Shown piece by piece: positions 9,386 to 59,117 of a stretch of 64,000 nt of DNA. Both the position numbers and the translations under genes were made by a program. The notes beneath the pieces are model-generated. The model made no database searches, was not told the DNA's origin, and saw only the letters and a list, made by a program, of their open reading frames with translations. The stretch is from Amyelois transitella. Lineage: Eukaryota > Arthropoda > Insecta > Lepidoptera > Pyralidae. Location of the stretch: positions 335,001 through 399,000 of the forward strand of contig NC_083516.1 of NCBI RefSeq assembly GCF_032362555.1, given 5' to 3'. The stretch's first letter is position 1; every line of letters begins with the position of its first letter.

Positions 9386-11580
9386 TCAGGGCTCGGGGAA
9401 TATGAACGGGAGGGTGACCATGAAGGGGTCCGCTATGTTAGTGCTCCGGTCGGCGGTCGGCGAGGCCGGCGGCTGCGCAGCGGAGGCCGAGGAGGGCACG
9501 ACGGTGTCCTGAAATTTAATGAAACACGATTACATAACTTAGAAATCTGACTTCAAATGTAGAACGGACTTGAAATGTTAAAGGGTCTATTCAGGCACAA
9601 GAATTTGTTGAGATTATTTAGGGATTAGCTTGAAATCTTTTGTTGTGTCACCAATGCAGTAACATGTATATGACTACAAAAAACAATATATGCCAGCTGT
9701 GTCTTTTTCCATTGTACAAGTCAATCAAAGCATATAAAATGAAATTAAATTTTAATTATTTTGTGTAAATGATTCGTTATAGAATAGCAACCTGTCACCA
9801 TCTCTGAATCCCTTTACTTATGCTTTATTTGTGGCCTTCGATTTTGTGAGAGGGCTCTGTTCTGCTCGATTGTAGACGTGACATTAGATTTGTATAGCAA
9901 CCTGTGAGGAGCGCCGCGAGACGAGTTCCTCGTCCGCGAGGCTGACGTGCACGTGCAGCGTGCTGTCGCGCCACGCCTGCCACGACAGCTGGTGCTCCTG
10001 GATCTTCAGCAGCATCCACGTGGTCAGCAGACCGTTCAGAGCACCTGTTGTTATGGGTTGATGATGTATTTTTGTCAGAAGAGTATCAATCATATCTAAA
10101 AAAGCAAATCTTTGGTACATAAAAGAGAACATCTACTAGACATTTCCGTCAAGTGCGGATATGTCACCCCTTAAGCTTTTCTAATTTTCAGGAGATAGAT
10201 AATAACCTGATTTTTATAATTGAATTAACATTAACATTGCTTTTTTACATAATTGATTGATAAATAAAAGTATTCAGTAAAAGCTAGACCTATTTCTTAA
10301 TATTTCAAACATCAAAACGCACCTATAATCCCAATAAGCAGCGACGAGAAGAGATTGGCGGCGAGCACCGCAGCGCCGCCCCGCTGCGCGGCCAGCTGCA
10401 GCGCGCGGTCGCAGGCGTGCAGCGCGCGCGCCGTGCCCAGCACCGACGCGGCCCCCAGCGCCGCGCCGCGCCACGCGTCCGCCGCCAGCGCGCGCCCGCG
10501 CCCCGAGCGCGCCCACTCCGCCAGCGAGCGGAGCCAGGACCATCTGGATTTGTAAACAAATGTTTATTGCACTGCTGAAATACGGGATACTTTTTGTGTG
10601 AAACAAATAACAAACAGACTTTACATTCTTAACTTTCACTGTAATTTGAACTAAATGCAATACATTTCATTTATTACATTGAATTATAAACTATGATCTA
10701 AAATGAGTGAACTCGATTACTCATCATAATAATTATGCAATCAAAAAACAATTCTAATTTTTCTTTTCTTTTTTTTTACATCTTTTTAGCGTCTATTACC
10801 AGCCATTAGGTACTCTTATTAAACCAATGAGGTTGCATTACTCTTTTCAAATTGTGATCCCTGAATTGAACAACAAACAAGAGTCAAATTGTGGGACTCA
10901 CACCCATTTCCCTGAACCTGTTCTTCGAAACTTCTTCACATAAGTCAGAGTTACAAAACTCATTTAATTTTTTGAAAGTCTTAGGTTTTTTGAAAGCATG
11001 CGTGCCCGTGCCCTGAGCGCGCCGTCTATGCTAGCCAATGCAGCCATGACTATACTGTATAGTATGTATATAATAGAAACATACGTCATTCGAACTTAGA
11101 ATATCCATTTTGTACACAAACTGTCATCAACTGAAAGTTATTTTTTATGGGATGGAAAAACATATTTTCCTTTATTCCGTTTCACATTTTATGGTGACGT
11201 AGTGATGCCGGCAGAGCTCGAAGTAACAGGTAGCAGTCTACAGCAGGGTAACGAACACCAGTGCCAGCTCCTCCTTCTCCTCTTGAGGATGAGATACTCA
11301 CTCTTACTTGAGGCGTCTAGTGACCATCTCTGAAGATGAAGTGCTCTTACTTGTGGCTTCTCGTGACGATATAATGATGCCTGCAGAGCTCGCAGTAAGA
11401 CGTGGCAGCCTGCAGCAGCCACCTCTCCAAGCAGGTCCTGTGGACAGCTGCAATGGTCCCCCTGCAGGAGCAAGGCCGGACCAGCCGCTCAGCAGACTCG
11501 CCTCCGAAACATATGCGGCAGATGTTGTCAGAGTGACGGCTCCCTGTGAAGCTGGATACTTGCTTTATACCTGATGTGCC
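9386..11580 (-). CDS. MARCH-type membrane RING-CH E3 ubiquitin ligase (C-terminal four exons)
   Basis: Exons on the minus strand are 11580-11351, 10543-10323, 10044-9902 and 9508-9386, all phase-compatible (238 codons plus stop). The first carries a RING-CH (C4HC3) finger: NICRICFGG, a CSCRGT turn, AAVHRTCLERWL and SYCELCRHHY. It is followed by a WLRSLAEW motif comparable to the post-RING region of MARCH2/3. Two hydrophobic stretches come next (around AWRGAALGAASVLGTA and AANLFSSLLIGIIGALNGLL), then a basic WQAWRDST segment. Two membrane passes after a RING-CH is the MARCH2/3 layout. Such ligases ubiquitinate membrane cargo in endosomes and the ER. The frame is open at the 5' end without an ATG, so upstream exons must exist. 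The C-terminal tail is unrecognised. The match to MARCH2/3 is from memory of the family. Confidence 0.75.
11170..11345 (-). pseudogene. Decayed duplication of the RING-CH exon 3' end
   Basis: Directly downstream of the RING-CH exon (ends 11351), a diverged copy repeats its last part. Plus-strand tgatgccggcagagctcga (11201) mirrors native tgatgcctgcagagctcgc (11374), and cttacttgaggcgtctagtg (11304) mirrors cttacttgtggcttctcgtg (11346). In the minus direction it still reads ELCRHHYV but is interrupted. Confidence 0.7.
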
Positions 11581-12016
11581 CTGAAAGAAAGAATAAGATG
11601 GTTAAAACCTAGAAAAGAAGGCTAGAGCTATTCAACTTTTAAATTAGCAAATTTAGAAACCGAAACCGCCGAGCTTGCATGAAGAGAATTATGAATGTGG
11701 ATGAAGTGAAGGAATTATGCAGAGATCGTGGCAAGTGGAAAGATGTAATCTCTGCCTACCCCTCCGGGAAAGAGGCGTGTTTTTATGTATGTATGTATTA
11801 GCAAATTAATCACTTAAGCTGGCACTTCTGTTGCGTAATAACTAAACACCTACTAGTTTAAAATCTAACTAGTTACAAGATGGCTAAGTCAGGATAACAA
11901 GATCAAAAACTAGTTTCTCATCTTGCTATTTTAACTTAGCCATCTTAAGAACTAGATGGAAAAAAAATTGTTGAAAGTATTAACATTTCTACATAAACTG
12001 ATGCTAGTAAAGAAAC

Positions 12017-22700: not shown

Positions 22701-25700
22701 GACATAAGTAATAAAAGTAAGCTAAAGTTATTATCCTTCACTCTTTCATCCATATAATCTCGTCTATATCCCTTGCGAGGTAGACGGAGCCAGCAGTCCT
22801 AATGACAGAATTGATGTTAAAATAGTGACAGGTTGCTAGCCAATACCAAGTTTATAAGCTTATTATAAACCTTTAAGCCTCCTACAAAATATTACAGGTT
22901 TTTTGCAAATCCCACGGCAAAGACAGCATTTAGCAGGATTGATGGTAGGTACCCTAAGAACTTTAAATTATGTATGAACACGAGATTTCAAGTACAGTAA
23001 AAAAAAAGGTAACAGACAAACTTACTTTTGCATTTATAATATCAGTTAGGATGTCTATACTGACTGATACATACATATAGTCACGTCTATATCCCTCGCG
23101 GAGTAGACAGAGCTAACAATCTTGAAAAGACTGAAAGGCCACGATCAGCTTTTGATCAGATTGAGATTCAAATAGCGACAAGTTGCCAGCCCATTGCCAT
23201 AAAGAATCCCAATTTTAAGCATATCCCTTAGTCGCCTTTTACCACACCCATGAGAAACGGCTGGAGTGGTCCTATTTTTTTTTTGTATTGGTGCCGGGAA
23301 CCACACCACAAAAGAGGAAAATAGACTTGTTTTGTGGTGAGAAATAAATGATGTATTATTATTATTAAAAATGATTTATTATAAACAAGTCAGTGTCACT
23401 CACCAGGCAGGCTGTAGGATCCGGTGAGACCCGTGCTGGCATTGGTCATCGACAACGATATGCTGTCAAACTTGTCGTAGCGGACGGGGCTCTGAGAAAT
23501 CAAATATTATACTTGTTTATATAAAAATACTGTAGGAAGTATAGTTATAAAAGTTATTTAATTCCTACAGAAGATAGAAGGTGAAAAGAGGAGAGAAATA
23601 ATCAGTTAAAAATCACTATATTATTCAATATATAAATTCAGAACATCTAACAATAAAAATTATTTTTGACATATTTCTAATAAACAACATCATGGCAACC
23701 GTTGCTATGGCGCATACCAAGAAGGTTGCCTACAAGGACCTTACTTAGGGCCTTTGATAAATAAATAGTTAAGAATTTATTTAAACTTTTATTACTTTTC
23801 GCTGTCCACAGCGACCAGGTTAACGGAAGTGAAAGGGTAAGACTTTTGTAAGGCAGCTGGGTGTGAACACTTCAAGAATAGTGATGCTGACCTCCGCGCT
23901 GAGTCATACCTGACCCAACGCAATTATCTGTTATTATTGGGACTTTGGGTCAGGTTCTATTCAGAGCGGACTTACATAAAAATTAATGACTTATATTAAT
24001 CTATACTAATATTATAAAGCTGAAGAATTTGTTTGTTTGTTTGAACAACTACTGGTTTGAATTGAAAAATTATTTTTGTGTTTAATAGACCATTTATCGA
24101 GGAAGGCTTTAGGCTATTTATCATCAAGCTGCAACTATTAGGAGCGAAGAAATAATGGAAAATGTGAAAAAAACGGGGAAATAATTCCTCCTTCAGGGCT
24201 TCAATGATGCCTAAAATCAAAAAAAAATGGGTTGGATCTGTGAATGTAGCCCTGACCTTGGTGGAGCACACGGTGCAGTGCAGCCGGGACGCCAGCGAGC
24301 CGCGGAAGGGCAGCACGGGTGAGACACTCCTTCTGAAGGTGAACACCTGGGTCGGGTCTGTGAATGTAGCCCTGACCTTGGTGGAGCACACGGTGCAGTG
24401 CAGCCGGGACGCCAGCGAGCCGCGGAAGGGCAGCACGGGTGAGACACTCCTTCTGAAGGTGAACACCTGGGTCGGGTCTGTGAATGTAGCCCTGACCTTG
24501 GTGGAGCACACGGTGCAGTGCAGCCGGGACGCCAGCGAGCCGCGGAAGGGCAGCACGGGTGAGACACTCCTTCTGAAGGTGAACACCTGGGTCGGGTCTG
24601 TGAATGTAGCCCTGACCTTGGTGGAGCACACGGTGCAGTGCAGCCGGGACGCCAGCGAGCCGCGGAAGGGCAGCACGGGTGAGACACTCCTTCTGAAGGT
24701 GAACACCTGGGTCGGGTCTGTGAATGTAGCCCTGACCTTGGTGGAGCACACGGTGCAGTGCAGCCGGGACGCCAGCGAGCCGCGGAAGGGCAGCACGGGT
24801 GAGACACTCCTTCTGAAGGTGAACACCTGGGTCGGGTCTGTGAATGTAGCCCTGACCTTGGTGGAGCACACGGTGCAGTGCAGCCGGGACGCCAGCGAGC
24901 CGCGGAAGGGCAGCACGGGTGAGACACTCCTTCTGAAGGTGAACACCTGGGTCGGGTCTGTGAATGTAGCCCTGACCTTGGTGGAGCACACGGTGCAGTG
25001 CAGCCGGGACGCCAGCGAGCCGCGGAAGGGCAGCACGGGCAGCGGCCGCGAGCGCGCGGGCAGCCAGCGGCGCCCCGCCGCGCTCAGGTGGCAGAACGAC
25101 CGGGACACGCCCTTTTGGAAGCGGAGACCCGGGGTTGGCTCTGTAATCACATTGTCACTACATAGTATAAAACAAAGTCGCTATTTTAGTCTGTTTGTCG
25201 GTATGCTTAAATCTTTAAAATTACGCAACGGATTCTGATGCGGTTTTTTGTAACAGGTAGAATGATTCAAGAGGAAGGTTCTTATGTATAATAACATTTA
25301 TAATTTTGCACCCGTGCGAAGCCGGGGCGGGTCGCTAGTATAGAATAGAATAGGTTTATTTTCAAAATTGGATACAAGGTATCACTTATTGACGTCACAC
25401 AACTTAAATCTAATTATAACTACTACCGCTTCCAAAGCGCATGTGTAGAGGAAGCGGCGGAACAAACTATACTGCAGCATTTTCATCGGACGTCAATACT
25501 TCACCATCATCAGAATCTTGGTTGTTCTCAGTGCTTTCAAGGTATGCAAAATAGTAGTCATATTCTAGGATGTAACTCAATCTTATTTATATTTAAAGGA
25601 CAAAAATACCATCTGAACTAACATGTACTATAAATGCGAAAGTTTATTTGTTATCTCTATCTCTACGCGCGCTGGTAAATGCCAGTTTTCTAGAAATATT

Positions 25701-35400: not shown

Positions 35401-38400
35401 AAAATTGTCTGTCTGTCTGTCTGTTCTATGCGTATGATAACGATTTATGTCATTTGTTATTTATATCATAACATTATTATCCAATAGGTCTTTGTGGGGC
35501 TGTCGACGCGTATGTCCTTCATAAAATATATGATTTTAAACTATCGCGGTGCATTATACTGCTTATAAATACAATACAATGATCCGTGGTCACCGAGGGG
35601 ATGAAAGCAGAAGCTGTCAAGGATGAATGATTTTCCCGGTTTTTTTTTTCACATATTCCATTATTTCTTTGCTCTTCATAGTTGCAGCGTCATGTTATAT
35701 AGCCTAAAGCCTTCCTCGATAAATGGTCTATTCAACGCAAATAATTTTTCAATTCGAACCAGCGCGTTCAAACAAACAAACAAACTCTTCAGCTTTATAA
35801 TATTAGTATAGGTTATTGCTCCCGGCACTTAAGAATCACTCTCATCTCTTTCCAATGGATGTCGTACAGAGCGACTAAGGGAAGGAAATTAGCAAGGATA
35901 ATGTTTTCACGCGGGTGAAGCTACGATTAACAGCCAGCATTAAGATAAATAGCAATAACATGATGTGATGAGTAATGACCACAGCGGTGATATTATCATG
36001 TGGTCACGCGCACGCCAAGTTATCGCCGACCCAGTTCCGCGGCGGAGCGGGTCAGATTATTGTAATGCGCGAATGTTTAATGTTTATCATGCATTTGCCT
36101 TATTTTAGGGTCAACGTGTTTGTTTCCAGACTGTTCTTAGAAATAAAACAAATATTACCTACTAGCTGTGCCAGCAACTTCGTCCGCGTGAAATAGTTGT
36201 TTTGGGCATCATTGAAGCCCTCAAGGATGAATAATTTTCCCCGTTTTTTACACGTTTTCCATTATTTCTTCGCTCCTAAATTATTACGCAGCTTATTACC
36301 ATTAATAATTTTATTTATTGGCGCTACTTTCATACTTTAGTAATAGAAAACTAATAGCCTATTGATATTTATTGCGGGACGTCGTCCTGACGCCCTCACC
36401 AAGTAGCTCGCTATACTCAGTCACTTACTTGCTGGATCTCTTGTGTATAGCTAAACCCACAACCTATTACATACATACATATGATCACGTCTTTATTCCT
36501 AACGGGGTAGACAGAGCCAACAGTCTTGAAAAGACTGATAGGCCACGTTCAGCTGTTTGGCTTAATGATAGAATTGAGATTCAAACACACAACAACTTTT
36601 TTCCACAACCTATTAAAATAGACATTATACTAGTCTAATAAAGATTGTCATAATTCGAATCGGCAATATTCGACTGCGAAGAATAGCGCGACCTACCGCC
36701 GAAACTCAATTAAATAATGCTCTAATTACAAGTAAAGTCTCGTGCTATCTCGCTCACAATAGCGTCAGTTCAATTCGCGGTTTCAAAATGGCGCGCTACG
36801 CTACAATAGGCTAAAATATTTTCGCGCTAAACAAATATTTTAATTCTTCGCTGGTAAGTGAACAAGTGTTGTTATTTTTTTTAAATTAATTTACTACACT
36901 TGTTTACTCAGCAAATTTTTTTTAAATTAATTTATTCGCTGACAGGTATGGGACGTGCACGCGAAGCCAAATCTGGAGCACACTATATACACCATCGCGT
37001 CGGTGGGACATGTGAAATGGAGGCCGCAGAAAAAGTTAGTTTTTTTTTTTTTTTTTTTATATCTATTTTCTTGCTCACACTCAATTGTGCGTGAAATATT
37101 CTCTGATCAATTGGTCTTTTATTCCTGGTGATAGATTTGGAAAAAAAAGTTTTATTTTACGTTCAAGTCTAGAGTTAATATACAAATCATACATACATAT
37201 AATCACGTCTATATCCCTTGCGGGGTAGACAGAGCCAACAGTCTTGAAAAGACTGATAGGCCACGTCTAGCTGTTTAGCTTTATGATGGAATTGAGATTC
37301 AAGTAGTGACAGGTTGCTATCCCATCGAATCGCCTAAAAGAAGAATCCCAAGTTTATAATCCTATCCCTTAGTCGCCTTTTACGACATCCATAGGAACGA
37401 GATGGAGTGGTCCAATTCTTTTTTTAATTGGTGCCGGGAACCACACGGCAGAGATAGCAGCTATACAAATCATATTTGTAAAAAAAAAATATTTAAAACA
37501 ATAACTACATAAGTATCTAAAATATTCGTGCCAAAATTTTGACTGACTTCAAGTCACTCTCTTTGTAAAGGTACCAAATGGCCTCCTGTGCGCTGGTGCT
37601 CGACTGCGCCGTCCACGTGTGGGACGTGCGCCGGCCACACGTCCCCCTGGCGACCTTCGCCGAGCACCGGGACGTCACCACCGCCGTGGCCTGGCAGGCC
37701 TCCCCCCACACCTTCCTGTCCACCAGCAGGGATTGCTCGCTCTATAGACACAGGTAGGAGGATCAGGATAGAGGAACTCGTTCAGCCCGGGTAGAATCTA
37801 AGGAAAATCGAAACTGACTTCAAGAATAATTTAATTCATTGTTTCCTCTGCCCAGGTTCTCGGAAGCGGCCCACCCGGTGCTGTGGGCGAACCCGCACGG
37901 CGTGTGCGTGTCGGCGCGGGGGGAGCTCTCCCACGCGGCGCCCGAGCGGCCCCTCCCCGCCCTCCTCACCGCCCCGCACTCCGCGCCCGCCAGCGAGCGC
38001 CTGCTGCCCGGCCTGGGGTGAGTGCTGCGTCCAGGTGTCGCTGCTCAGACCCCTCCCCGCCCTCCTCACCGCCCCGCACTCCGCGCCCGCCAGCGAGCGC
38101 CTGCTGCCCGGCCTGGGGTGAGTGCTGCGTCCAGGTGTCGCTGCTCAGACCCCTCCCCGCCCTCCTCACCGCCCCGCACTCCGCGCCCGCCAGCGAGCGC
38201 CTGCTGCCCGGCCTGGGGTGAGTGCTGCGTCCAGGTGTCGCTGCTCAGACCCCTCCCCGCCCTCCTCACCGCCCCGCACTCCGCGCCCGCCAGCGAGCGC
38301 CTGCTGCCCGGCCTGGGGTGAGTGCTGCGTCCAGGTGTCGCTGCTCAGACCCCTCCCCGCCCTCCTCACCGCCCCGCACTCCGCGCCCGCCAGCGAGCGC

Positions 38401-40884
38401 CTGCTGCCCGGCCTGGGGTGAGTGCTGCGTCCAGGTGTCGCTGCTCAGACCCCTCCCCGCCCTCCTCACCGCCCCGCACTCCGCGCCCGCCAGCGAGCGC
38501 CTGCTGCCCGGCCTGGGGTGAGTGCTGCGTCCAGGTGTCGCTGCTCAGACCCCTCCCCGCCCTCCTCACCGCCCCGCACTCCGCGCCCGCCAGCGAGCGC
38601 CTGCTGCCCGGCCTGGGGTGAGTGCTGCGTCCAGGTGTCGCTGCTCAGACCCCTCCCCGCCCTCCTCACCGCCCCGCACTCCGCGCCCGCCAGCGAGCGC
38701 CTGCTGCCCGGCCTGGGGTGAGTGCTGCGTCCAGGTGTCGCTGCTCAGACCCCTCCCCGCCCTCCTCACCGCCCCGCACTCCGCGCCCGCCAGCGAGCGC
38801 CTGCTGCCCGGCCTGGGGTGAGTGCTGCGTCCAGGTGTCGCTGCTCAGACCCCTCCCCGCCCTCCTCACCGCCCCGCACTCCGCGCCCGCCAGCGAGCGC
38901 CTGCTGCCCGGCCTGGGGTGAGTGCTGCGTCCAGGTGTCGCTGCTCAGACCCCTCCCCGCCCTCCTCACCGCCCCGCACTCCGCCCGTGAGGAGATCAAC
39001 TCCATCGTCCCCCTGACGTTAGACCTGGTCGCGTCTTTAAGTTTCTGGAGATGACAAACATGATTGATGAAAATCTTAAGCCAAGGTATATTTTTCTGTT
39101 ATATCTAAATAAAACTACACTGCAGCATTTACATGAAAGACTTCAATTTGCAAAAGGCTTTTCTATTCACAGCCGCAAACAACCCCGCGCCGGCTCCCTG
39201 TCGGCGCCGGCGCAGGCGGCGCTGGAGCGGGCCTTCCCCGGCGGCGCGGCGTCCACCCTGAGCCGCTTCCGGGTGCCGTCGGAGCTCGTGTCCGGCGAGC
39301 GGGCGTTGCTGGAGTGCGCGCTGCGGTACAAGATGGCGGGGCAGCCGCCCCACGAGCTGGCGGCGCACAACGCGCAAGTGGCGAGGAGTGTCAGTAGATT
39401 CATGGTCTGTGTTTGTTTATTTACTATTAGTTCGCCCGCGTTAATAAGATATACATACATATAGTCACATATATATATATATATATAATGTCCCAACCAT
39501 GATCCAATACAAAAAAAAAATCCAAGTGCCGTGTGGTTCCCGGTACCAATGTACCAATACAAAAAAGAATAGGACCACTCCATCTCTTTCCCATAGATGT
39601 CGTAAAAGGGGACTAAGGGATAGGCTTCTAAACTTGATATTCTTCTTTAAGGCGATGGGCTAGAAACCTGCTAGTATTTGAAACTCAATTCTATCATCAA
39701 GCCAAAAAGCTGAGCGGGGTCAAACAGTCTTCTCAAGACAGTCGGCTCTGTCTAGCCCGTAAGGTATAAAAGAAAATGGTATGGAAACAAATCGTTTATT
39801 GACTCCACAACAAAATGGCCTTAAGTAAAAATGTGTAGTTATACTTATTATCTCAGGTAAATATACCTGTGGACAATAATCGTTGTGAAGATCTGGTGCG
39901 ATATAGACGTGACTATATGTATGTATGTAAGATTTTGTGTTTTTTTTTTGTTTTACTACTATTTATGGTGTGACTGGTCATGTCCACCGAGCGATGCTCG
40001 GTCGCCCAGGTAGTGCGTCTAACAGCAACGTGTGTAGGTGTCGCACGTGTGGGAGGTGGTGAGCGCGGTGTACGCGCGCCGCGCCGCGCCGCGCGCCGCG
40101 CCCGCGCCCGCGCCGCCGCCGCCGCCCCCGCCGCGCCCCGCCTACCCGCCCGAGCCCGCCTACTGGTAACTATGCCGATACGTGGATGAATGATGATCGC
40201 GGCAAGTGGAAACATGTATTGAATGATGATTTTTTTTAATAAAAAGCTTTTTTTTTTAGTAGTACCTATTAATTTAGAAAAAAAATAATATTAGCCAAAT
40301 CCTCCAAATTTAAGAATAGAATAGAATAGATTTATTTTCAAAATTGCATACAAGGTATCACTTATTGACGTTACATAACTTAAATCTAATTATAACTACT
40401 ACCGCTTCCAAAGCGCATGTGTAGAAGAAGCGGCGGAACAAACTACACTGCAGTGCACTGCATAAGTTATTAACACTCAAAATGACACATTTTGACGTAG
40501 CTCTCCAATGATTTAAGATCTCAATTAACGTTAACCTCTTTTTCAATATAATAAAATCTCTTACAGCACCGTAGAAGAAGAGCCCATGGAGGAAGTGGAA
40601 GAAGAGAGAGTGGAGACCCAGTTCCACAACAGCGGGGTGCTGGGGCTGCCCACCGTCAGCATCTACATCCCCCCGGCCAAGTACAAGCTGAGAGAGGGAG
40701 ATGGTTAGTGCTCGTGTACAAGAAGAGTTTCACAAGAATAGAATAGAATAGATTTATTTTCAGAATTGGATACAAGGTATCACTTATTGACGTCACATCA
40801 CTTAAATCTAATTAAAACTACTACCGCTTCCAAAGCTCAGATTTCAGTAAATTGTTAGAGAGAGGATGGTAAAATTGCTTAGCG

Positions 40885-40944
<60 letters not shown>

Positions 40945-43900: not shown

Positions 43901-46900
43901 TGATATTTGTGTTTATATAATATTATTTTAATTTCAATTAAAATCAATTATAACAATGTATTCTCTCAAGACTGTAGGCTCTGTCTACCCCGCAAGGGAT
44001 ATAGACGTGATTGTATGTATGTATGTATGTATTCTCTCGTTCACATTTCTATTCTAATTCGAAGGTTAGATTAATATGTCATTTTATAAAAAAAATATAT
44101 ACCTACCTACGTACATGTAAAAAAAATTGTAACTGGCCGACGTCTTTGGTTAATAGAATAGAATAGATTTATTTTCAAAATTGGATACAAGGTATCTATC
44201 ACTTATTGACGTCATATCACTTAAATCTAATTATAACTACAATTTAGATATGTAGATATAAATGGAAATACTTAATTTACAAAATATTTATATACTAGCG
44301 CCGTGTGGTTCCCGGCACCAATACAAAAAAGAATAGGACCACTCCATCTCTTTCCCATGGATGTCGTAAAACTCGACTAAGAGATAGACTAACAAACTTG
44401 GGAGTCTTTTTTAGGCGATGGGCTAGCAACCTGTCACTATTTGAATCTCAATTCCATCATAAAGACAAACAGCTGAACGTGGCCTATCAGTCTTTTCAAG
44501 ACTGTCGGCTCTGTCTACCTCGCAAGGGATATAGACGTGATTTTATGTATGCATTTGACTAAATCAATTGTCAATTCCCACACAGATCGAAGAAACCGAG
44601 AGCGGTGAGAGCAACCGTTACCTCTCAGTGAGAACGGACAGCTCCCGGCAGCCGCTGGACCTGGCGCCACACCTGGCGGCCGCCATCAAGCAGCACGCGG
44701 CGCTCGGCGACGTGCAGACTGCTGCGGTGCTCATGCTGGTGCTGCAGCAGCACAGGTAGCGGGGTAGGCAGAGAACGGGGAGCTCCCGGCAGACCCTGGA
44801 CCTGGCGCCACACCTGGCGGCCGCCATCAAGCAGCACGCGGCGCTCGGCGACGTGCAGACTGCTGCGGTGCTCATGCTGGTGCTGCAGCAGCACAGGTAG
44901 CGGGGTAGGCAGAGAACGGGGAGCTCCCGGCAGACCCTGGACCTGGCGCCACACCTGGCGGCCGCCATCAAGCAGCACGCGGCGCTCGGCGACGTGCAGA
45001 CTGCTGCGGTGCTCATGCTGGTGCTGCAGCAGCACAGGTAGCGGGGTAGGCAGAGAACGGGGAGCTCCCGGCAGACCCTGGACCTGGCGCCACACCTGGC
45101 GGCCGCCATCAAGCAGCACGCGGCGCTCGGCGACGTGCAGACTGCTGCGGTGCTCATGCTGGTGCTGCAGCAGCACAGGTAGCGGGGTAGGCAGAGAACG
45201 GGAGGTCCCGGCAGCCCCTGGACCTGGCGCCACACCTGGCGGCCGCCATCAAGCAGCACGCGGCGCTCGGCGACGTGCAGACTGCTGCGGTGCTCATGCT
45301 GGTGCTGCAGCAGCACAGGTAGCGGGGTAGGCAGAGAACGGGAGGTCCCCGCAGCCCCTGGACCTGGCGCCACACCTGGCGGCCGCCATCAAGCAGCACG
45401 CGGCGCTCGGCGACGTGCAGACTGCTGCGGTGCTCATGCTGGTGCTGCAGCAGCACAGGTAGCGGGGTGGGCAGAGAACGGGCAGCTCCCGGCAGCCGCT
45501 GGACCTGGCGCCACACCTGGCGGCCGCCATCAAGCAGCACGCGGCGCTCGGCGACGTGCAGACTGCTGCGGTGCTCATGCTGGTGCTGCAGCAGCACAGG
45601 TAGCGGGGTAGGCAGAGAACGGGAGGTCCCGGCAGCCCCTGGACCTGGCGCCACACCTGGCGGCCGCCATCAAGCAGCACGCGGCGCTCGGCGACGTGCA
45701 GACTGCTGCGGTGCTCATGCTGGTGCTGCAGCAGCACAGGTAGCGGGGTGGGCAGAGAACGGGCAGCTCCCGGCAGCCGCTGGACCTGGCGCCACACCTG
45801 GCGGCCGCCATCAAGCAGCACGCGGCGCTCGGCGACGTGCAGACTGCTGCGGTGCTCATGCTGGTGCTGCAGCAGCACAGGTAGCGGGGTAGGCAGAGAA
45901 CGGGGAGCTCCCGGCAGACCCTGGACCTGGCGCCACACCTGGCGGCCGCCATCAAGCAGCACGCGGCGCTCGGCGACGTGCAGACTGCTGCGGTGCTCAT
46001 GCTGGTGCTGCAGCAGCACAGGTAGCGGGGTAGGCAGAGAACGGGGAGCTCCCGGCAGCCCCTGGACCTGGCGCCACACCTGGCGGCCGCCATCAAGCAG
46101 CACGCGGCGCTCGGCGACGTGCAGACTGCTGCGGTGCTCATGCTGGTGCTGCAGCAGCACAGGTAGCGGGGTAGGCAGAGAACGAGGAACTCCCGGCAGC
46201 CCCTGGACCTGGCGCCACGTCTGGCGGCTCTCAGTTCTCAGTGAGAACGGAAAATCACGTTTCTTTTCCCGGAGGGGTAGGCGGAGACTTCATCATAACT
46301 GTCTTCATGTAAGCTCGTGGGTTTCCGGTATTCTTGACCTGACCTTCTGCTAGGACGTCCTTAATTTGATGAAGGTACAATTGCCTTCCCACTCCTACCT
46401 TTTCATTCACACTCTTGATGTTTCTAATTCTTTAAAAAAGAATAGGACCACTCAATCTCTTGCCCAAGGATATCGTAAAGCGCGACTAAGGGATAGACTT
46501 ATAAACTTGGTAATATTTTTTTTAAGCGATGGGCTAAGAACCTGCCTCATTAAACCAAACAGCTGAGCGTGGCCTGTCATTACCGCAAGGGATATAGATG
46601 TGTTACGTATACCGGTACGTAAGTAATATTCTCATAGATTAATTGATGATGATAATCATCCTGATGTATAATTACAGGAGCGACCTGTTCCCTTACATCG
46701 ATGAGAATCTCCAAGAGCAATGGCTTCTGGGCTACATCGAGCTGCTGCAGAGGCACAAGCTGTGGAACATCGCTACCGAGGTGAGTGTGCTTCTGTATCT
46801 AATTTCGATACGTACTTCCTACATGACATGACTTAGTGACAGGTTACTAAATGTGTATTTTCATATAATAAGAGAGAAAAAAAATTGTAGAATCAGATGC

Positions 46901-48756
46901 CACGCCAATAAGTGTCGTGTGGTTACTGGCACGAATTGAAATAATAATAGGACCACTCCATCCCTTTCTTATTGACGTCGTAAAAGGCGACTAAGGAATA
47001 GGCCTATACAGGTGACATTTAAAACAACTGCATCCTTTTAAACATAGACTATGTATACCCATGCTTCTGAGCTGTTTGAGCCTATTTTTATTTAAATTAA
47101 ACGTCATCATTTTCACATTTTAAAAAACCCTCAGAAACTACGTCACACGCTTTATTGAAGACCAATACTACAAAAAGAAATTTAAACTAAACATGTAAAT
47201 AAATGTCTAAAAAATAAATTATTTTTCTAGTATCAAGATCAAGTAAAGTACAGAGTTGTCGAAATCGCTCAGCTGAATGAATTGTGTCGTTGACCTCTGA
47301 ATCTTACGCGTCGCTTTTCCGCCGGCCGGGGTGAAAAAATATGACGTATTTACGATCGTAGATTTTGATACTTTTATTTTTTTTCGTACTTTCTGAAATA
47401 TGAACCGATAATTTTCTTTTAACGTTTTTTAATATCCTTTAGATGAGTACACTTAACAGTTAAATTCATGCAGTTGAATTAAAAGTCACCCTGTATACTA
47501 GAGACTCTTCTTTTAGACAACCCGTCACTATTTGAATCTCAATACTACCATTAAGCCGAGCAGCCGAACGCGGCCTTCCGGTCTCTCGACGACTGTATGT
47601 GTGTGTGTGCGCGTGCGCAGGTGATCCGCGCGTCGTGGGCGGGCCGCGTGTGGGCGCTGTCGCAGCAGTCCACGGGCGTGGCCGTGTGCTGCGCGCGCTG
47701 CGGGCGCCGCTCGCGCCCGCACGCCGCCTGCGACCGCTGCCAGCCGCGCCGCCACCCCGACACCTGCAGCGTCTGCCACCAGGTCACTGACACCCATATC
47801 ACCACAATACCCTCACTCTCAGTTAATATCCCCTCAATAACTCACTCACTTACAGTTATTATCTCCTCAATAACTCACTCACTCATTCACAGTTATTATC
47901 TCCTCTATAACTCACTCACTCACTCATTCACAGTTATTATCTCCTCTATAACTCACTCACTCATTCACAGTTATTATCTCCTCAATAACTCACTCACTCA
48001 CAGTTATTATCTCCTCAATAACTCACTCACTCACAGTTATTATCCCCTCAATAACTCACTCACTCACTCACAGTTATTATCTCCTCGATACCCTCACTCT
48101 CAATCAATAAAACCTCATAGATTTAACTAACGCCATCTAGTGATAACGCCGTGGCACTAAACCATACAAATTTTTTAGTTGCTCGGCGCGTTTTATTGAG
48201 TAAAAAATCGCGTTAGCAACGGGACCATGAGGGAGAAGTGTTTCTCATAATCCCATTATTTTCCTACCAAAACCTTTGATAGGTTCGAGACTAAATATCA
48301 TTAATTTAATCATAATTTTGTTTATCTTATCATTTAATAACCAAACAAACGCTATGGTGGGTAGCATGACACGCGCGACTCCGTTTTTATCGCGCCGAAA
48401 ACTATCGCTGTTTCGCTTCACATTACGTCTTGAAACGAGACAGCGATAAAAAGTCACGCTTGCCACGCTAAAAATAGTGTTGGCTCTGTCTATCCCGCAA
48501 GAGATATAGATGTGGCCATATGTACATATGTATGTATGTGCCACGCTACGGGGTCTAGTTGGTCGAAACTGAACATTTATATCTTCACCAAGTGTACCAG
48601 CTCCAAGTTCCTCCCGTCTGGTTCCAGGTGGTGCGGGGCCTGTACGCGTGGTGCCAGGGCTGCTCGCACGGCGGCCACCTGCGGCACATGCGCGACTGGA
48701 TGCTGCAGCACCAGCTGTGCCCCGCCGGCTGCGGCCACCAGTGCCAGCTCGGCTGA
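32441..48756 (+). CDS. Wdr24: WDR24 orthologue: GATOR2 complex subunit
   Basis: Seventeen phase-consistent exons give 813 codons plus stop (human about 790): 32441-32540, 32616-32732, 33239-33354, 33776-33882, 34340-34553, 36946-37034, 37571-37753, 37856-38017, 39173-39404, 40038-40165, 40567-40703, 41425-41583, 43739-43872, 44586-44755, 46678-46780, 47621-47782 and 48628-48756. Residues about 15-320 form a WD40 propeller ([75 protein letters not shown]). A proline-, alanine- and acid-rich linker follows. A helical segment ([40 protein letters not shown]) precedes a Cys/His zinc module at about 725-813 ([41 protein letters not shown]). WDR24 is part of GATOR2 at the lysosome, which counteracts GATOR1 and permits TORC1 activation by amino acids. 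Three tandem arrays and one satellite lie at its exon edges. Confidence 0.95.
37948..38985 (+). repeat. 100-bp tandem array spanning the exon 8 / intron 8 donor of Wdr24
   Basis: Exactly 100-base units, apparently identical by eye. Ten donors G|GTGAGTGCTG occur at 38018, 38118 and so on to 38918, followed by a partial unit that diverges at about 38984. Each unit holds the last 67 or so bases of exon 8 (coding [19 protein letters not shown]), the donor and about 31 bases of intron ending tgctcag. The first donor is the native one: using it puts exon 8 in phase with exon 39173-39404. Read-through stops at once (TGA in the donor), so the copies are intronic. Confidence 0.93.
40313..40460 (-). 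repeat. Third interspersed family (LEP-C here), reference copy
   Basis: Landmarks are agattattttcaaaattg-like ends with TAGAA/TTCTA repeats, tatcacttattgacgt, and accgcttccaaagcgc followed by actgcagtgca. Same-strand copies occur at about 25340-25485, 40735-40835 and 44153-44245. Opposite or diverged relatives occur at about 8100-8275, 57140-57345 and 60600-60800. The terminal pentamer repeat suggests target-primed insertion (LINE or SINE type). Confidence 0.7.
40887..40941. repeat. (AT)n microsatellite
   Basis: About 27 uninterrupted AT dinucleotides in Wdr24 intron 11, directly beside the tail of an interspersed repeat copy (acgtctttatacc). Confidence 0.95.
41850..42225 (+). repeat. Two tandem partial LEP-A copies
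   Basis: Two copies of the middle of the element (ggatatcataaaaggcgac at about 41878 and ggatatcgtaaaaggcgac at about 42022) lie in the same orientation. They are followed by a single shared end with a (TATG)n tail. Confidence 0.7.
42228..42480 (+). mobile_element. tRNA-derived SINE
   Basis: The head resembles a tRNA: ctctgtggcgcagcggtagt (A box) and ccgggttcgaatcccgg (B box with its T-arm), 73 bases in all but with an imperfect acceptor stem. A unique body follows (about 42300-42480). It lies in Wdr24 intron 12, directly after a (TATG)n tail. I read it as a pol III SINE rather than a functional tRNA gene. Confidence 0.75.
42758..43738. repeat. 15-bp satellite array ending at the exon 13 acceptor of Wdr24
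   Basis: About 65 units of ctgtactatacaata, each in one of two forms that differ at a single C/T position (tacaata or tataata). All reading frames are open because the unit is 15 bases without stops, which creates long meaningless ORFs. The last unit, ctgtacag, supplies the acceptor AG (43737-43738) for Wdr24 exon 13, so there is no normal pyrimidine tract. Confidence 0.95.
44586..46250 (+). repeat. 140-141-bp tandem array spanning the exon 14 / intron 14 donor of Wdr24
   Basis: Eleven donors CACAG|GTAGCGGGGT follow one another, with GT at 44756, 44897, 45038, 45179, 45319, 45459, 45600, 45740, 45881, 46022 and 46163, and a partial unit ends near 46248. Each unit contains the 3' part of exon 14 ([20 protein letters not shown] and onwards), the donor and about 23 bases of intron. 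Units fall into variant classes at the junction, for example ggggagctcccggcag, ggaggtcccggcag and gggcagctcccggcag, so the array is not perfectly homogenised. The phrase ctcagtgagaacgg occurs both in native exon 14 (about 44626) and at the far edge of the array (about 46237). Confidence 0.92.
47813..48115 (+). repeat. Minisatellite after the exon 16 donor of Wdr24
   Basis: About eight imperfect units of 30-43 bases built on the core cagttattatctcctc plus a variable number of ctcact repeats. It starts about 30 bases after the donor at 47783. An apparent ORF across it is a repeat product. Confidence 0.85.
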
Positions 48757-50522
48757 TGCGCGGGCGCAGCGGCACGCTCGGTAAGCCTGTGCGGCGATCT
48801 GACCATAGCAGGGGAAACTAACTCATATTGGATCTTGATAAGCTGAAGATTGGGCCTATTCCCCTTGTTACCTTTTAGGGTTTTGTGAGTAAAGAGATGA
48901 TATGGTACTTTTTAGAACAGAAACCAAATTTAGAACTCTTTCTTCCTTCTGGGCCAGAAGGAAGAAAGAGTTCTAAACTTGGCAACCTGGACTAAAGCCA
49001 GAAGTTCTGGCTTTAGTCCAGGTTGCCACGATCTCTGCATACTTCCTTCGCTTCATCCACATTCATTACTCTCTTCATGCAAGCTCGGCGGTTTCGGGTA
49101 CTTTTGACCTGACCCTTGTACTCTATCGAATATAACTTTTTTTTTATCTTCAACAGAAATACTGGCGAAGCGCCTACTGGGAACCAACGGTACTTGTCAA
49201 GATTAGTCTACATCTAGTCGCATGCCTATAAGCTTTGACATAGAATCAAATATAGTACAACGATGATTATGTTGCTATCATACTGATATTATTTTTGTAT
49301 CACAGTTATAAAGTTAACCATATGTTAAGAACAATATCGTAGAGATGACGTTAACTCAACTATCATTAGTTAAATATCGTCAACCGAAATACAAATTATT
49401 ATTTTTTTATTAATTATTATGGGACATGACTAATTTTACTGAATTATTGTCATATCTTTTGGTTTCACAATATTGGTTGACGAAGCGTCAGTGTAGAAGC
49501 GGTAATAACCGTAAGTGAATACTGTGGCCGACTGACGACGCATAGAACAAGCTTCTGTGCTTAAACCTACATATGTATGTTCCTGTATGTTTTAAAGGAA
49601 ACACTCAGTTGCGATGTCCCGAAATTCCCAGAGGAAACCGACTTTTTGAAGATAATTTAGATTGAAAACAAAATAATCGCGCACAAAATGGTTCCACATT
49701 GATAGCCCAAAATACCATTGAGAAGTTGAACTCTCATAAAGGTGAAGTTTAAGTCCCAGAATGATAAGAGTATCACGGTTTTGCAAAAAGTTAAATTATT
49801 GTTATTTTGAACTTATAAATCGTTGAATTCCCATAATGTTCACATTTATATTTGAATCTTAACGAACCTCTTCAAAACAAACTTCCTCAAACGCTCGAGT
49901 TTAAATTGATAATGTGTTTTTAAGTTGACATACACACGTTGCCAGACACTCGAACTAATATTGAATATATATTTAATGAATATTAAACAATGGTACAGTC
50001 AAGCTTGTAAAATAAAATTTTAAGATAAATGAGAATATATTTTATAGACTGAATATTGTAAATATTTTTGTTATGATTTGTTGTAATATATTTAAAGAAT
50101 TTGATTTTTGATTATTTTTTTTACCCTAAAGCAAAATCTCCTCAGTTTTTCTGTGGTGTGGGCACGGCTAAACGAACGTATCTTGCATCAAATAAGAGAC
50201 GTCCTGGCGAAAGGTTCGGTCGAGAGTTCTCAAAACCGCCGAGCTTGAAGAGATAAAGTTTCTGTATGGGAATGAAGCGAAAGAAGTATACAGGAATCGT
50301 GGTAAGTGAAAAGGTGTAGTCTCTGCCTGCTCTTTCAGGACTGAGTCGAATAGAAAGAAAACAGGATTTTTTAAATACGTTTATTAAAATCAATTATAAT
50401 ATCTATTTAGTTCATATACAGCCACATAAATTATTAATAGTACGTACCTACTAAAGTAATACGGATGATGAAGTGAGATCGCGATATCGACTACCGATAA
50501 CAGATGGCGCCATCAACGGAAT
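48757..50522. other. Wdr24 3' flank
   Basis: AT-rich sequence containing the paired palindromes, LINE 3'-end fragments (about 49020-49125 and 50175-50335) and a possible LEP-C relative at 49440-49530. The Wdr24 poly(A) site is not certain. No gene is seen. Confidence 0.4.
48929..49028. repeat. Two adjacent perfect palindromes with 24-bp arms
   Basis: Palindrome 1 spans 48929-48977 with 24-base perfect arms around a single G at 48953. Palindrome 2 spans 48980-49028 with 24-base perfect arms around a single G at 49004. Only two bases separate them. They lie just 3' of the Wdr24 stop, and the second abuts a LINE 3'-end fragment. Confidence 0.95.
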
Positions 50523-51845
50523 ACATTCAGTCAGAAAAGTATCGGGAATGGATTATTTATTTATGGTTCCAAATTCAAATTTTTGTTTTTTTTGTTGTTG
50601 TTAGATTGGCAAAACTGTTTTCCATTTTGGCGCGGAGTTTGAGTTGCATCTGTTGTTTACATTAAATACAGTGCTATTTTTATTTATATCATATCTAGTG
50701 TGTATTGCTAATTTCATAATGGATAAAAACATCGAACAAAGAGTTTGTCTTAAATTTTGCATTGCCAATGGAATATCGTGTTCGGAGTCACTGAAAATGT
50801 TACAGAAGGCTTACGGTGAATCGACTTTATCAAAAACTCGTGCTTATGAGTGGTACAAAGCGTTCAAAAGCGGTCGAGATGTGATGGAAGATTTGCCTCG
50901 CTCTGGTAGGCCATCAACGTCTGCAACTGAAGTTAACATCGCAAAAGTGAAGGAAATAGTGACTGAAAATCCTCATTCAACTTTGAGAGAGATAGCCACC
51001 GAACTTTCTGTATCTCACGAGTTGATCCGTACCATTTTAACTAATAATTTGGGTATGAAACATGTTGCCGCTCGGCTAGTCCCAAAAGACCTGAATTTTT
51101 TCAAAAACTCAATCGCATGAGAGTCGCTGAGGACATGCTAGAACGAGTCAATTCCGACCCAACATTCATGAAACGCATTGTTACTGGTGACGAGACGTGG
51201 GTTTACGAGTTTGACATGCAAACTAGTCAACAAGCTTCGGAGTGGCGCCTTCCAACTGAACCGAAACCGAAAAAACCACGCCAAAGTCGTTCAAAAGTCA
51301 AAGTCATGTTGACTGTTTTCTTTGACTATCGCGGTGTTGTGCACTCGGAATTCTTGCCGGAAGGTCAAACGGTAAATAAGGAATATTATTTGAGTGTTAT
51401 GCGGCGTTTAAGAGAGCAAATCCGACGAAAAAGGCCAGATTTGTGGAAAGAAAATTCTTGGATTTTGCACCATGATAATGCACCTTCGCACAAGGCCATC
51501 ATTGTGAACGAATTTTTAACCAAACACTCAACAAATACCATCGAGCAACCACCATATTCACCAGATATGGCTCCAGCCGACTTTTTTCTTTTTCCTAAAC
51601 TCAAATTACCACTTCGTGGCACCCGTTTTCAATCGGTAGAAGACATAAAAGAGAATTCGCGGCGAGAACTGACCTCAATTCCGGAAACAGCGTTTAAAAA
51701 ATGTTTTGATGATTGGATTATTCGTTGGCGTAAGTGTATCGTTTCTAAAGGAGCATATTTTGAAGGTGATAAAATAAATTTGGATGAATAACAAACAGTT
51801 TATGTATTATTGATCTTTTCCCGCTACTTTCTTGACAGAGTAGTA
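50523..51845 (+). mobile_element. mariner-family (Tc1/mariner, DD34D) transposon
   Basis: About 1.3 kb, the usual mariner length. The left end cattcagtcagaaaagtatc and the reverse complement of the right end (actctgtcaagaaagtagc) form imperfect terminal inverted repeats, both followed by cgggaa. It carries one transposase gene, broken by a single frameshift. The exact ends and the TA target duplication are estimated by eye. Confidence 0.85.
50719..51791 (+). pseudogene. mariner transposase, one frameshift
   Basis: DNA cut-and-paste transposase. The first part (from ATG 50719) has the paired helix-turn-helix region with RAYEWYKAFKSGRDVMEDLP and the linker SGRPSTS. The second part, in a different frame, carries the catalytic acids in TGDETWVYEF, HHDNAPSHKA and YSPDMAPADFF; the last two Asp are separated by 34 residues, the mariner DD34D signature. 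The two frames meet at a run of six T near 51085. Frame 1 then ends at TGA 51118-51120 while the second frame runs to TAA at 51791. A one-base loss in the T run explains the break. The body is otherwise intact, so the copy looks young. Confidence 0.9.
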
Positions 51846-55909: not shown

Positions 55910-58900
55910 CTACAACACGGTGCACTTGAGTTTCCTGCGCTTGCGATCCTTGAGCGCGCCGTTGGGGGCGCGGCTGTCCTCGCACTTGCGCGACCGGATC
56001 TCCCGCATCAGGTCGAAGAACACCTGCGGCACACACACACATACACACATCACCAACGCTGCCTCCACCGCGGACGACACGACTCACAAACAAACATCCC
56101 AAACATATAGGTATATAGTCCAACCAATATATATAGATACTTTATATAGGATATTTGTGCCGTGTGGTTCCCGTGACCGATAGAAAACGAGAATAGGACC
56201 ACTCCATCTATTTCCCGTGGATGTCGTATAAAGGGTTAGGCTTATAAATTTTGGATTCTTCTTTTAGGCGATTGGCTCCCAACCTGTCACTATTTAAATC
56301 TCAATTCTATTAGTAATCTGTACCGTAAACCATCTCCAAGTTGTATAAATAGTGCTAGTTCCAACAGATACAATACATTCACGTCTATATCACTTGCGGG
56401 GTAGATAGAGCCAACAGTCTTGAAGAGACTGATAGGTGTTTAGCTTTATGATAGAATTGAGATTCAAACAGTGACAGGTTGCTAGCCCATCGCCTAAAAA
56501 ACGAATCCCAAATTTAAACGCCTATCCCTTACTCGCCTTAACGGCATCCATAGGAAAGAGCTAGAGCGGTCCTATTCTCCAGTGCACACACGGTCTTCCT
56601 GGTCATTCGAAGACCATAGGTTCCTTGCACCGCGCACGGATTACAGACATTACTGACTGCATGTACCGACCTTGTCCACGTTGTCCCTGGTCTTAGCGCT
56701 GGTCGCCTCAAAGAAGAATCCCAAATTTAAACACCTTACTCGCCTTTTACTACATCCATAGGAAAGAAATAGAGCTGTCCTATTCTCCAGTGCACACACG
56801 GTCTTCCTGGTCATTCGAAGACCATAGATTCTCTGCACCCCTCACAGGTTACAGACATTACTGACTGCATGCACTGACCTTGTCCACGTTGTCCCTGGTC
56901 TTAGCGCTGGTCTCCACGTACGGCACCTGCCACGCGGAGGCGCGCTCGCGGCAGCTCTCCAGGGGCACCCGCCGCTTGTCCGCCAGGTCGGACTTGTTGC
57001 CCACCAGCAGGAACGGGATGTTCTCGTCGTTTTTCACTCGCAGTATCTGCTCCCTGTAACGTGTTTATACTTGTTTTGTCAAGATGCGACGAACAAAACG
57101 AACTTTGAAGTGATACCTCAACAAAATTCAAAATTTTTATTCATTATTATAGGATACTATATATCGCTTAATAATTGTCAAAACGTATGGTTTAACAACA
57201 TTGGTTGACGTCAAATAAATTACTTAAAAACTAAGTTTACTGCCGCTTCCAAGGCGTCAGTGCAGAAGAAGCGGTAACAAACTGCACTGCAGCATTTTCT
57301 TCAACAACGTCAACTTCACAATATTAATTAAAATTAGAATAGAATAGAATCTGATTCTGGGTATCATTGAAGCCCTCAAGGGTGAATAATTTTCCCCTTT
57401 TTTTTACATTTTCCATTATTTCTTCTCGCTCCTAATAGTTGCAGCGTGATGTACATAATATAGCCTAAAGCCTTCCTTGATAAATGGTCAGTGGCAGAGC
57501 TGAAGGTAACAGCTAGTATCTTATGTTATCCATTAATTTAATTACCTGAACTCTTGTGTGGCGTCGAAGCTCTCAGGCTCTGTGATGGAAAACACGCACA
57601 GGAAGCCCTCCCCGGACCGGAAGTAGTTGTCCCGGATGGCCGCGTAGTCCTCCTGCCCCGCCGTGTCCAGGATGTCGATCTGAACCTCCTCCCCGTCTAA
57701 TACTACCTGGAATTTAAAAAGAAAGTTTGAAAATATAATTTCGTTAACTTTAAGGAATATTAAACTCAAGAGAATCATCATATATATATTTTTTAATTAC
57801 CGCTTTCCCTGGTGTCAAGACATACATACAAACATATAATCACGTCTATATCCCTTGCGGGGTAGGCAGAGCCAACATTCTTGAAGACTGTTAGGCCACG
57901 GTCAGCTGTTTGGCTTGATGATAGAATTGAGATTCAAATAGTGACAGGTTGCTAGCCCATCATCGACAATTAACTCGACTAACACTGAACACAATAACAC
58001 GAGTTTAACAGTGAACCTGCTAAATGTAGCTGCTTCCAAGCTGGTTTTGAACCCATGATCTTATAACACCACTAGACATATCCACTAACAAAAGTGGCGT
58101 GACGTGTTCTGCCGTTGAAAGAAAGCAAAAGTCATGCCCTCAACATTGTTTCCATAAGTGCTAATTACTACAAAATCTACGCCACACGATGATGAGCTGT
58201 GACTCACTTCCTCACACCTCTCTTCACCGCGTCGTGGTGAGTCAATCATGATTGCAATATCGATGACCTCGAGGGTGAACAACACGTGCACAGTAGACCT
58301 TCCAATTGAAAGCGATTCTGGGGTCTGACTTGCCGCTGTATTTAAACATGCCCTTTTAATATTCTAAGTGGCTGTAGAGTCTGCGTCTTTTATATCTTAT
58401 AAAATTCTCGTGTCACAATGTTCGTTCCCGTACTCCTCCGAAACGGCTCGGCTGATTCTCATAAAATTTTGTGAGCTACTCAATATACAATGTGAGTAGG
58501 TCTGAGAATCGGTCAACATCTACTTCTCATACCCCTTAGTGATAAGGGTTTTACATGGTCTACGCCTGAATTCTTCACTATGATACTAGATCTTACTTTC
58601 TTTCTACACCATGAATTGGAGAGTGAGGGCGGCAGCTTCCCGACGCCGCCGGAGCCAACCATGATCACCTTGTGCAGGGTGGGCTGCGCGCTCGGCTTCT
58701 ACACCATGAGACCAAGTCTTATCTTCTTCAGCTGTCTGCCTTAATAAGCTCGTAGTCCTCACAAAATCATCATGCATAAACTAGAGCATTCCACCCTGTT
58801 TAACATAGAGTACTCCTGACTACTTCACCGTGAGACCAGGTCTTACCTTCTTCCTATAGCTGTCCGCTTTAGTGGGCTCGTAATCCTCCACAAACTCGTC

Positions 58901-58999
58901 ATACATGAACTGGAGAGTGAGGGCAGACTTCCCGACGCCGCCGGAGCCGACCATGATCACCTTGTGCAGGGTGGGCTGCGCGCCCGGCTTCTTCGACAT
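55910..58999 (-). CDS. Rala: Ral small GTPase (RalA/RalB orthologue)
   Basis: Four minus-strand exons, 58999-58847, 57706-57546, 57053-56879 and 56023-55910, join in phase to 200 codons plus stop, the usual Ral size. The P-loop GSGGVGKS (residues 18-25), effector region [12 protein letters not shown], switch [21 protein letters not shown], the NKSD guanine motif and the ETSAK motif are all present, and the C-terminus is basic (KDRKRRKLK) with CAAX box CTVL, fitting geranylgeranylation. [12 protein letters not shown] followed by [17 protein letters not shown] is diagnostic of Ral rather than Ras or Rap. Ral acts through the exocyst and RalBP1 in secretion and actin control. An acceptor-like cttccag about 30 bases upstream of the ATG suggests a 5' UTR intron. 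Tandem partial duplications flank exons 1 and 3. Confidence 0.95.
56157..56580. repeat. Two LEP-A copies in opposite orientation in the Ral last intron
   Basis: A plus copy at 56157-56335 and a minus copy at about 56376-56580, both diverged. The minus copy extends into the local duplication that reaches Ral exon 3. Confidence 0.7.
56480..56912 (-). repeat. Two-copy 208-bp tandem duplication over the Ral exon 3 donor
   Basis: The exon 3 end and donor (plus-strand cttgtccacgttgtccctgg at 56879) recur 208 bases away at 56671, together with the intronic flank ccagtgcacacacggtcttc and part of a LEP-A copy. The distal copy keeps 34 bases of exon and its donor, so it is a partial pseudo-exon. Divergence is modest. 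Confidence 0.85.
58570..58800 (-). pseudogene. Decayed tandem copies of Ral exon 1 and its donor
   Basis: Two partial copies lie in intron 1 immediately 3' of native exon 1. One (about 58570-58700) retains the P-loop coding region (plus-strand cttcccgacgccgccggagc). The next (about 58700-58800) retains the exon end and donor (gagaccaagtcttatcttct against native gagaccaggtcttaccttct). Spacing is about 125 bases. Substitutions and deletions make them non-coding. Confidence 0.8.
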
Positions 59000-59117
59000 G
59001 ATCCCGTGATGGTGGCACTTGGTGCCTCGCTGGAAGACAGAAAAGGCATCGTTAGTCTCAGCTGCAGGCCATTAGACATTCAGCGCACCTCGCACTCCTC
59101 TCCAGTGATAAATAACT

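Follow-up and report, generated by a model that had tools for sequence, protein, structure and literature searches.

How does the end of an exon, together with its splice signal, come to be repeated in tandem in the intron behind it, and why should this be found six times in one stretch of DNA? Within the 64 kb analysed here (the window), the terminal part and splice signal of six exons in four genes (Usp30, Wdr24, Ral and a RING-CH gene) are tandemly copied into the downstream intron. Such recurrent duplication of exon 3´ ends with their donors had been claimed in an original prediction, and Tandem Repeats Finder, self-BLAST and gene models bear it out: in 6/6 cases the repeated piece starts within the exon, passes the GT donor and has its extra copies downstream of the native exon, as the prediction held. 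Most likely, repeats have expanded in the ordinary way in GC-rich DNA and persist because the first splice signal is still functional, an explanation which leaves the absence of such repeats at the acceptor edge unaccounted for.

Six duplications and the exons they copy

The whole window was searched by Tandem Repeats Finder and by masked self-comparison (self-BLAST), with 18% of it masked as dispersed repeats by self-match. These repeats hint at a moth or butterfly. The six cases were first picked by a reader of the sequence, and the systematic scan then added no exon-overlapping duplication except low-complexity matches. Local same-strand duplications with E 0.001 or better after masking comprised the six exon cases, a 15-bp array, a 33-bp array, GC-rich low-complexity matches (10490/11000 and 40074-40152/41509-41572) and one 22-bp match, in a printed list that omitted hits starting inside five already known tandem arrays. 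Tandem Repeats Finder reported five units of at least 100 bp; four cross donors and one is intronic. Among the long-unit, exon-overlapping local duplications of the window, donors are crossed in six of six and acceptors (28-29 modelled) in none. The features are as follows:

11351..11580, minus strand: native RING-CH exon, RINGv match in Pfam with E 1.5e-16; donor CAA/GTAAGA
11194..11327, minus strand: two partial, decayed copies from the end of the RING-CH exon, of which that at about 11301-11327 contains the donor
24977..25140, minus strand: native exon 4 of Usp30, whose 3´ end bears the 120-bp array; donor AAG/GTCAGG at 24977; joined to the next exon, it is open and aligns to solved USP30
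24228..25039, minus strand: Usp30 array, 6.8 x 120 bp, 99% (Tandem Repeats Finder)
37856..38017, plus strand: native exon 8 of Wdr24; donor GGG/GTGAGT; the spliced model aligns to solved WDR24
37950..38984, plus strand: Wdr24 exon 8 array, 10.4 x 100 bp, 100% (Tandem Repeats Finder)
44586..44755, plus strand: native Wdr24 exon (exon 14 of the original prediction); donor CAG/GTAGCG; match to solved WDR24 across the exon junction
44630..46228, plus strand: Wdr24 141-bp array, 11.4 x 140-141 bp, 97% (Tandem Repeats Finder)
56879..57053, minus strand: native exon 3 of Ral; donor AAG/GTCAGT; spliced Ral is open
56490..56915, minus strand: tandem duplication at Ral exon 3, with two copies about 208-213 bp long (self-BLAST)
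58847..59029, minus strand: native exon 1 of Ral; donor AAG/GTAAGA; Ras match in Pfam
58610..58786, minus strand: two decayed copies of the Ral exon 1 end and donor region (self-BLAST)

Exon coordinates were placed by eye on GT/AG. Homology backs Wdr24, Ral, Usp30 exons 1, 2, 4 and 5 and the RING-CH exon; the coordinates of Usp30 exons 3 and 6-8 and of the second RING-gene exon come from GT/AG by eye, without homology. The first Wdr24 donor coordinate was one base off in all analyses. Usp30, Ral and the RING-CH gene all lie on the minus strand, and RINGv, Ras and UCH are matched in Pfam.

The Usp30 unit joins 63 bp of exon end to 57 bp of intron; its full copies are identical and the last one adjoins a dispersed repeat. 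In Wdr24, which lies on the plus strand with 16 exons found from 32474 to 48756, the exon 8 unit consists of 68 bp of exon and 32 bp of intron and its array ends inside a partial exon piece, and the 141-bp unit consists of about 125 bp of exon and 16 bp of intron, with 11 donors spaced 140 or 141 bp apart. In a correction to the original prediction, both Wdr24 arrays end in a partial exon copy rather than in plain intron. For Ral exon 3, Tandem Repeats Finder gave 56527-56912 (208 bp, 1.9 copies, 91%), the measured unit containing 31 bp of exon. Around Ral exon 1, self-BLAST paired 58610-58709 with 58904-59001 (90%) and 58696-58786 with 58820-58915 (78%). In the RING-CH gene it paired 11194-11246 with 11363-11418 (80%); the score of either RING-CH copy was reached in 0/1000 dinucleotide shuffles, the stretch of the donor-bearing second copy having been chosen after inspection.

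Taken over all cases, divergence among copies spans 0 to about 22%, which agrees with the predicted range from perfect to decayed. Among the four measured units the exonic share is 63, 68, 125 and 31 bp, with no common distance to the donor, and the GC content of the six units is 0.47 to 0.77. Minisatellites have units of roughly 10-200 bp. Three of the arrays are series of head-to-tail unit copies and belong to this class; Ral and RING-CH have only 2-3 copies. As repeats lying across an exon-intron boundary, all six long-unit, exon-overlapping cases qualify, every one at a donor.

Part of this regularity might be an assembly artefact, with copy number inflated or homogenised in polishing. The exon 8 array of Wdr24, in which 10.4 copies run over 1035 bp without one difference, is what a consensus artefact could give as well. 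We nevertheless regard an artefact as improbable, given that the 141-bp array contains ordered variant copies, that the last copy of each Wdr24 array is partial or altered and that the Ral and RING-CH copies are diverged.

Not all tandem repeats cross donors. A 142-bp unit repeated 1.9 times (41863-42134) is confined to an intron, where it sits within a dispersed repeat, and a GC-rich 22-bp unit (41521-41574, 2.3 copies, 78%) is a short-unit case in the interior of the Wdr24 exon 41425-41583. Both short-unit arrays in Wdr24 adjoin exons. The AT-rich 15-bp array of 65 copies at 42759-43736 occupies the intron end, the usual place of a polypyrimidine tract, and stops right at the AG that precedes the exon at 43739; the 33-bp array of 8 copies at 47812-48099 starts about 29 bp past the donor of the exon ending at 47782. 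Downstream of the Wdr24 stop codon, at 48924-49028, there are two adjacent long palindromes, one with 29-nt arms (97%) and the other with 24-nt arms (100%), the arms being 1 nt apart in each. Two overlapping reading frames at 50605-51791 resemble a mariner-type transposase.

Native donors and possible use of the copies

Splicing from the native donors gives uninterrupted models for Wdr24 (in two pieces), for Ral (200 residues) and for Usp30 exons 4-5, and the WDR24 and USP30 matches span the exon of the 141-bp array and the Usp30 exon junctions. Usp30 exons 4 and 5 are joined in an open frame (CTVCSTK/SPVRYDKFDS) with an insert-free alignment to solved USP30. Since no in-frame junction connects the Wdr24 exons at 39173 and 40567, the model was treated in two pieces; these match solved WDR24 7uhy_C with E 3.2e-42 and 1.9e-37, and the best hit of one of them is 9dx1_C (1.9e-38), listed as Nucleoporin SEH1. 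The region of the WDR24 alignment that holds the repeated piece of exon 8 shows gaps and little conservation, so that the native end of this exon rests on the open frame and on matches either side. Because conserved Wdr24, Usp30 and Ral sequence is obtained in open frames with the native donors, the additional copies are most readily taken as passengers in the introns.

What use of a later donor would do differs between arrays. In Wdr24, the native frame meets TGA at 38019-38021 directly past the exon 8 donor and TAG at 44757-44759 directly past the donor of the exon at 44586; with a stop in the first codons past both donors, splicing from a later one would cut the protein short. The native frame stays open from end to end of the Usp30 array, so that later donors there would add blocks of 40 residues.

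This openness is one reason to ask whether the copies are in use, the arrays supplying alternative exon ends or cassette exons, protein variants or new introns. There is a human precedent, in that minisatellites at exon-intron boundaries are reported to alter splicing (PMC2812944). The original prediction further held that a CAG precedes each copied exon piece in the three long arrays. A CAG indeed stands directly before the piece in the 141-bp array and 1 bp before it in Wdr24 exon 8; in Usp30 it lies 13 bp upstream. Scored with an acceptor matrix built from 27 of 29 acceptor coordinates (two not ending in AG were dropped), these CAGs reach 3.6 (Wdr24 exon 8), 3.4 (141-bp array) and at most 1.8 (Usp30, outside the four best); the 27 modelled acceptors have a median of 8.7 and a minimum of 0.9. 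Some candidate exons would be acceptable: from the predicted CAG to the donor, a Wdr24 exon 8 copy measures 69 nt and keeps the frame, and a Usp30 unit CAG scoring 5.4 yields 90 nt, in frame. Another AG in the Wdr24 exon 8 unit scores 8.7, equal to the modelled-acceptor median, but yields 83 nt, out of frame. The 141-bp array copy measured from its CAG has 125 nt and is out of frame, with a 1-bp deletion in three of ten copies, and the Ral and RING-CH copies are decayed. Introns have a minimum length, and the distance from a donor to the next such CAG, about 16 to 44 bp, is too short for introns between adjacent copies, with skipping of one copy possible. With the CAGs adjoining exon pieces at 3.6 or less, a designed series of CAG-preceded cassette exons is rejected as a general account. 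Intron gain would mean a new intron relative to orthologues, bounded by duplicated splice signals; in a comparison with solved protein chains, the coding sequence from native donors matches WDR24 and USP30. On balance, we find it hard to believe that the copies are in use.

Placement at donors: chance, base composition and mutation

When units are placed at random over the gene spans, a donor is crossed in 18.5% of placements ignoring GC and in 26-32% with unit GC at least 0.45 to 0.65. Six unit lengths were used (the last two being copy distances), with dispersed repeats and extra copies excluded; forbidding placements that touch extra copies lowers the simulated donor share, and the RING-CH donor was one base off in this simulation. 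With GC-matched units crossing a donor in only this fraction of placements, six of six are unlikely by chance, about 3e-4 to 1e-3 (4e-5 without GC matching; powers taken by hand). The claim that the placement is not random therefore stands. Donors make up somewhat under half of the simulated units that cross one edge only, so six to none has a probability of about 0.01-0.03.

The array donors resemble the 22 other donors in most respects, in a set of measures compared without multiple-test correction and with the RING-CH donor again one base off. Exon GC (p 0.33) and donor match (p 0.86) do not differ, and predicted DNA folding is slightly stronger (p 0.07). Sense-strand G skew shows no difference between the two groups (exon skew -0.047 vs -0.050, p = 0.85; second skew measure p 0.57), and the G-quadruplex score shows no significant excess at the array donors (p 0.18, 0.56). 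R-loops, proposed in the original prediction as a cause, thus find no support in exon ends without sense-strand G richness, and a role of R-loops or G-quadruplexes was set aside. Attraction of duplications by stronger donors was dismissed on the consensus match.

What does distinguish the array donors is the start of the intron. Its GC content (first 16-30 bp, with the RING-CH donor set right) is 0.43-0.69 at the six array donors vs a mean of 0.31 at the 22 others (p = 0.0008, likewise uncorrected); a 60-bp version of this measure is partly circular because it includes copied exon. Taking flanks with GC of at least 0.43 over 30 bp, there are 7/29 acceptors, with no duplication, and 9/28 donors, 6 of them with arrays (Fisher about 0.01, by hand); this threshold, like the GC cut-offs of the placement, was set after the data were seen. 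A GC asymmetry between donor and acceptor flanks is not supported as the cause of the bias, the flanks being alike. Since acceptor flanks are as GC-rich and yet free of arrays, GC continuity may explain which donors were hit but not why acceptors were spared.

This leaves room for a mutational process peculiar to the 3´ ends of exons and linked to transcription or splicing, which repeatedly duplicates donor-spanning DNA; examples would be R-loops, nascent RNA bound by U1, or stalled replication at the edges of exons. It would be consistent with the six crossings of donors and none of acceptors, with their low probability under GC-matched placement and with the similar GC of donor and acceptor flanks. 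Against it, the array donors have neither G skew nor a significant quadruplex excess nor a higher consensus match, the break positions relative to the donor vary widely, selection yields the same donor-only pattern, and the six events come from a single, perhaps atypical window. We consider such a process unlikely. Of the donor-biased mutational process originally suggested, recurrence, the range from perfect to decayed and non-random placement hold; the targeting of donors is unneeded, as GC-rich edges and selection give the same pattern. A broader form of the idea would make exon 3´ ends hot spots, at which donor-spanning DNA is duplicated much more than acceptor-spanning or intronic DNA of equal GC wherever a GC-rich exon runs into a GC-rich intron, so that many conserved genes would carry spare arrays of 5´ splice sites. 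This we put forward as a distinctly doubtful speculation.

Origin of the arrays and comparison with known boundary repeats

We suggest, with somewhat more confidence than doubt, that the arrays are minisatellites born in genes, where repeats grow in GC-rich DNA and donor-crossing copies are tolerated because the native donor suffices. A possible course of events would begin with a GC-rich exon that continues into a relatively GC-rich intron and is duplicated once in tandem. Judging from the junctions, this first duplication might have arisen by microhomology-assisted template switch or by end joining, the intronic end of the duplicated stretch apparently lying inside a dispersed repeat in two cases. 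Copy number could then rise by unequal exchange or slippage, as the order of variant copies suggests. The native first donor would presumably still be joined to the next exon in RNA and give a normal mRNA, and the extra copies would stay as inert intron sequence and decay. Donor-crossing duplications would be kept because the first, native donor gives normal mRNA. The first AG at an acceptor tends to be chosen, and duplications across it, like those inside a coding exon, would in most cases harm the mRNA and be removed; a copy crossing the acceptor would place a foreign first AG before the true exon.

Where a tandem duplication arose by template switching or microhomology end joining, a short common sequence is typically left at its junction. 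The pre-duplication intron end is not recoverable for Usp30 and Wdr24 exon 8, and junction readings are limited to the 141-bp array and Ral exon 3. In the 141-bp unit, an intron piece resembling the dispersed-repeat stretch GGGGTAGGCAGAGA (located at about 11.76 kb, minus strand) is joined to the exon at a common GAGA. The Ral exon 3 junction lies inside a dispersed repeat, with repeat AGGC/GATGGG joined to exon GGA/GACC at a common GA. The lack of fixed unit ends, together with 2-4 bp common with dispersed repeats at these two clear junctions, points to ordinary minisatellite birth and growth.

The succession of types among the ten full copies of the 141-bp array, A A A B B' C B C A D, is compatible with unequal exchange. 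All six columns that vary fall at positions 11-40 of 141, around the GGGAGCTCCC palindrome (44766-44795 in the first extra copy); such clustering has a probability of about 0.002 if the events were six and independent, and of 0.04 if they were four. A confinement of variants to 30/141 bp is not expected from whole-unit exchange, and exonic conversion between copies or a hairpin-linked hot spot could be the cause.

The minisatellite account starts from what can be read directly at this locus: the anatomy of the duplications, a normal coding sequence through the native donor, decay of copies, GC-rich intron starts at array donors and common bases at two junctions. Selection would be the simplest reason for the donor-only pattern. 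One observation speaks against selection: wholly intronic duplications should be the most tolerated, yet there is only one other long-unit array (41863-42134) beside two short-unit arrays. Were the donor-only pattern found genome-wide, it would offer a direct means of telling biased mutation apart from selection at splice sites, and the arrays would serve as natural experiments on the choice that the spliceosome makes among as many as 11 nearly identical donors. Gene annotation can also be led astray by such arrays, from which new exons and introns might arise.

Donor-crossing arrays in insects are not described among the literature matches listed (titles and abstracts), an absence that is no proof. 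An exact 33-bp array-unit pattern had 0 matches in a viral contig collection, and a 29-bp dispersed-repeat pattern had 0 in a genome contig collection. The ATP2A1 example of Hellsten 2011 is reportedly cited alongside a potato tandem duplication across an exon edge. In that potato case, a tandem duplication across the intron 1/exon 2 boundary created a new intron (PMC4974935). The likeness lies in the tandem duplication across an exon edge; in potato the acceptor side was involved and a new intron arose, whereas here donors are crossed and any new intron would be hypothetical. Tandem repeats derived from dispersed repeats have been described as well (PMC3389668), and two units here likewise end within dispersed repeats; unlike those, the present units mix exon, intron and repeat.

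The closest parallel is offered by human genes of segmental duplications, in which internal tandem repeats (minisatellites) at exon-intron boundaries are reported to affect splicing (PMC2812944). Common to both are minisatellite units at exon-intron boundaries. The human repeats occur in genes of recent duplication and have on average 4 copies of a 30-bp unit, whereas here the units are 100-208 bp (four clear cases), the genes are conserved, the donor side is affected and the normal protein is still encoded. What is notable against known boundary repeats is the combination of long units, conserved genes and six donor crossings with no acceptor crossing within 64 kb.
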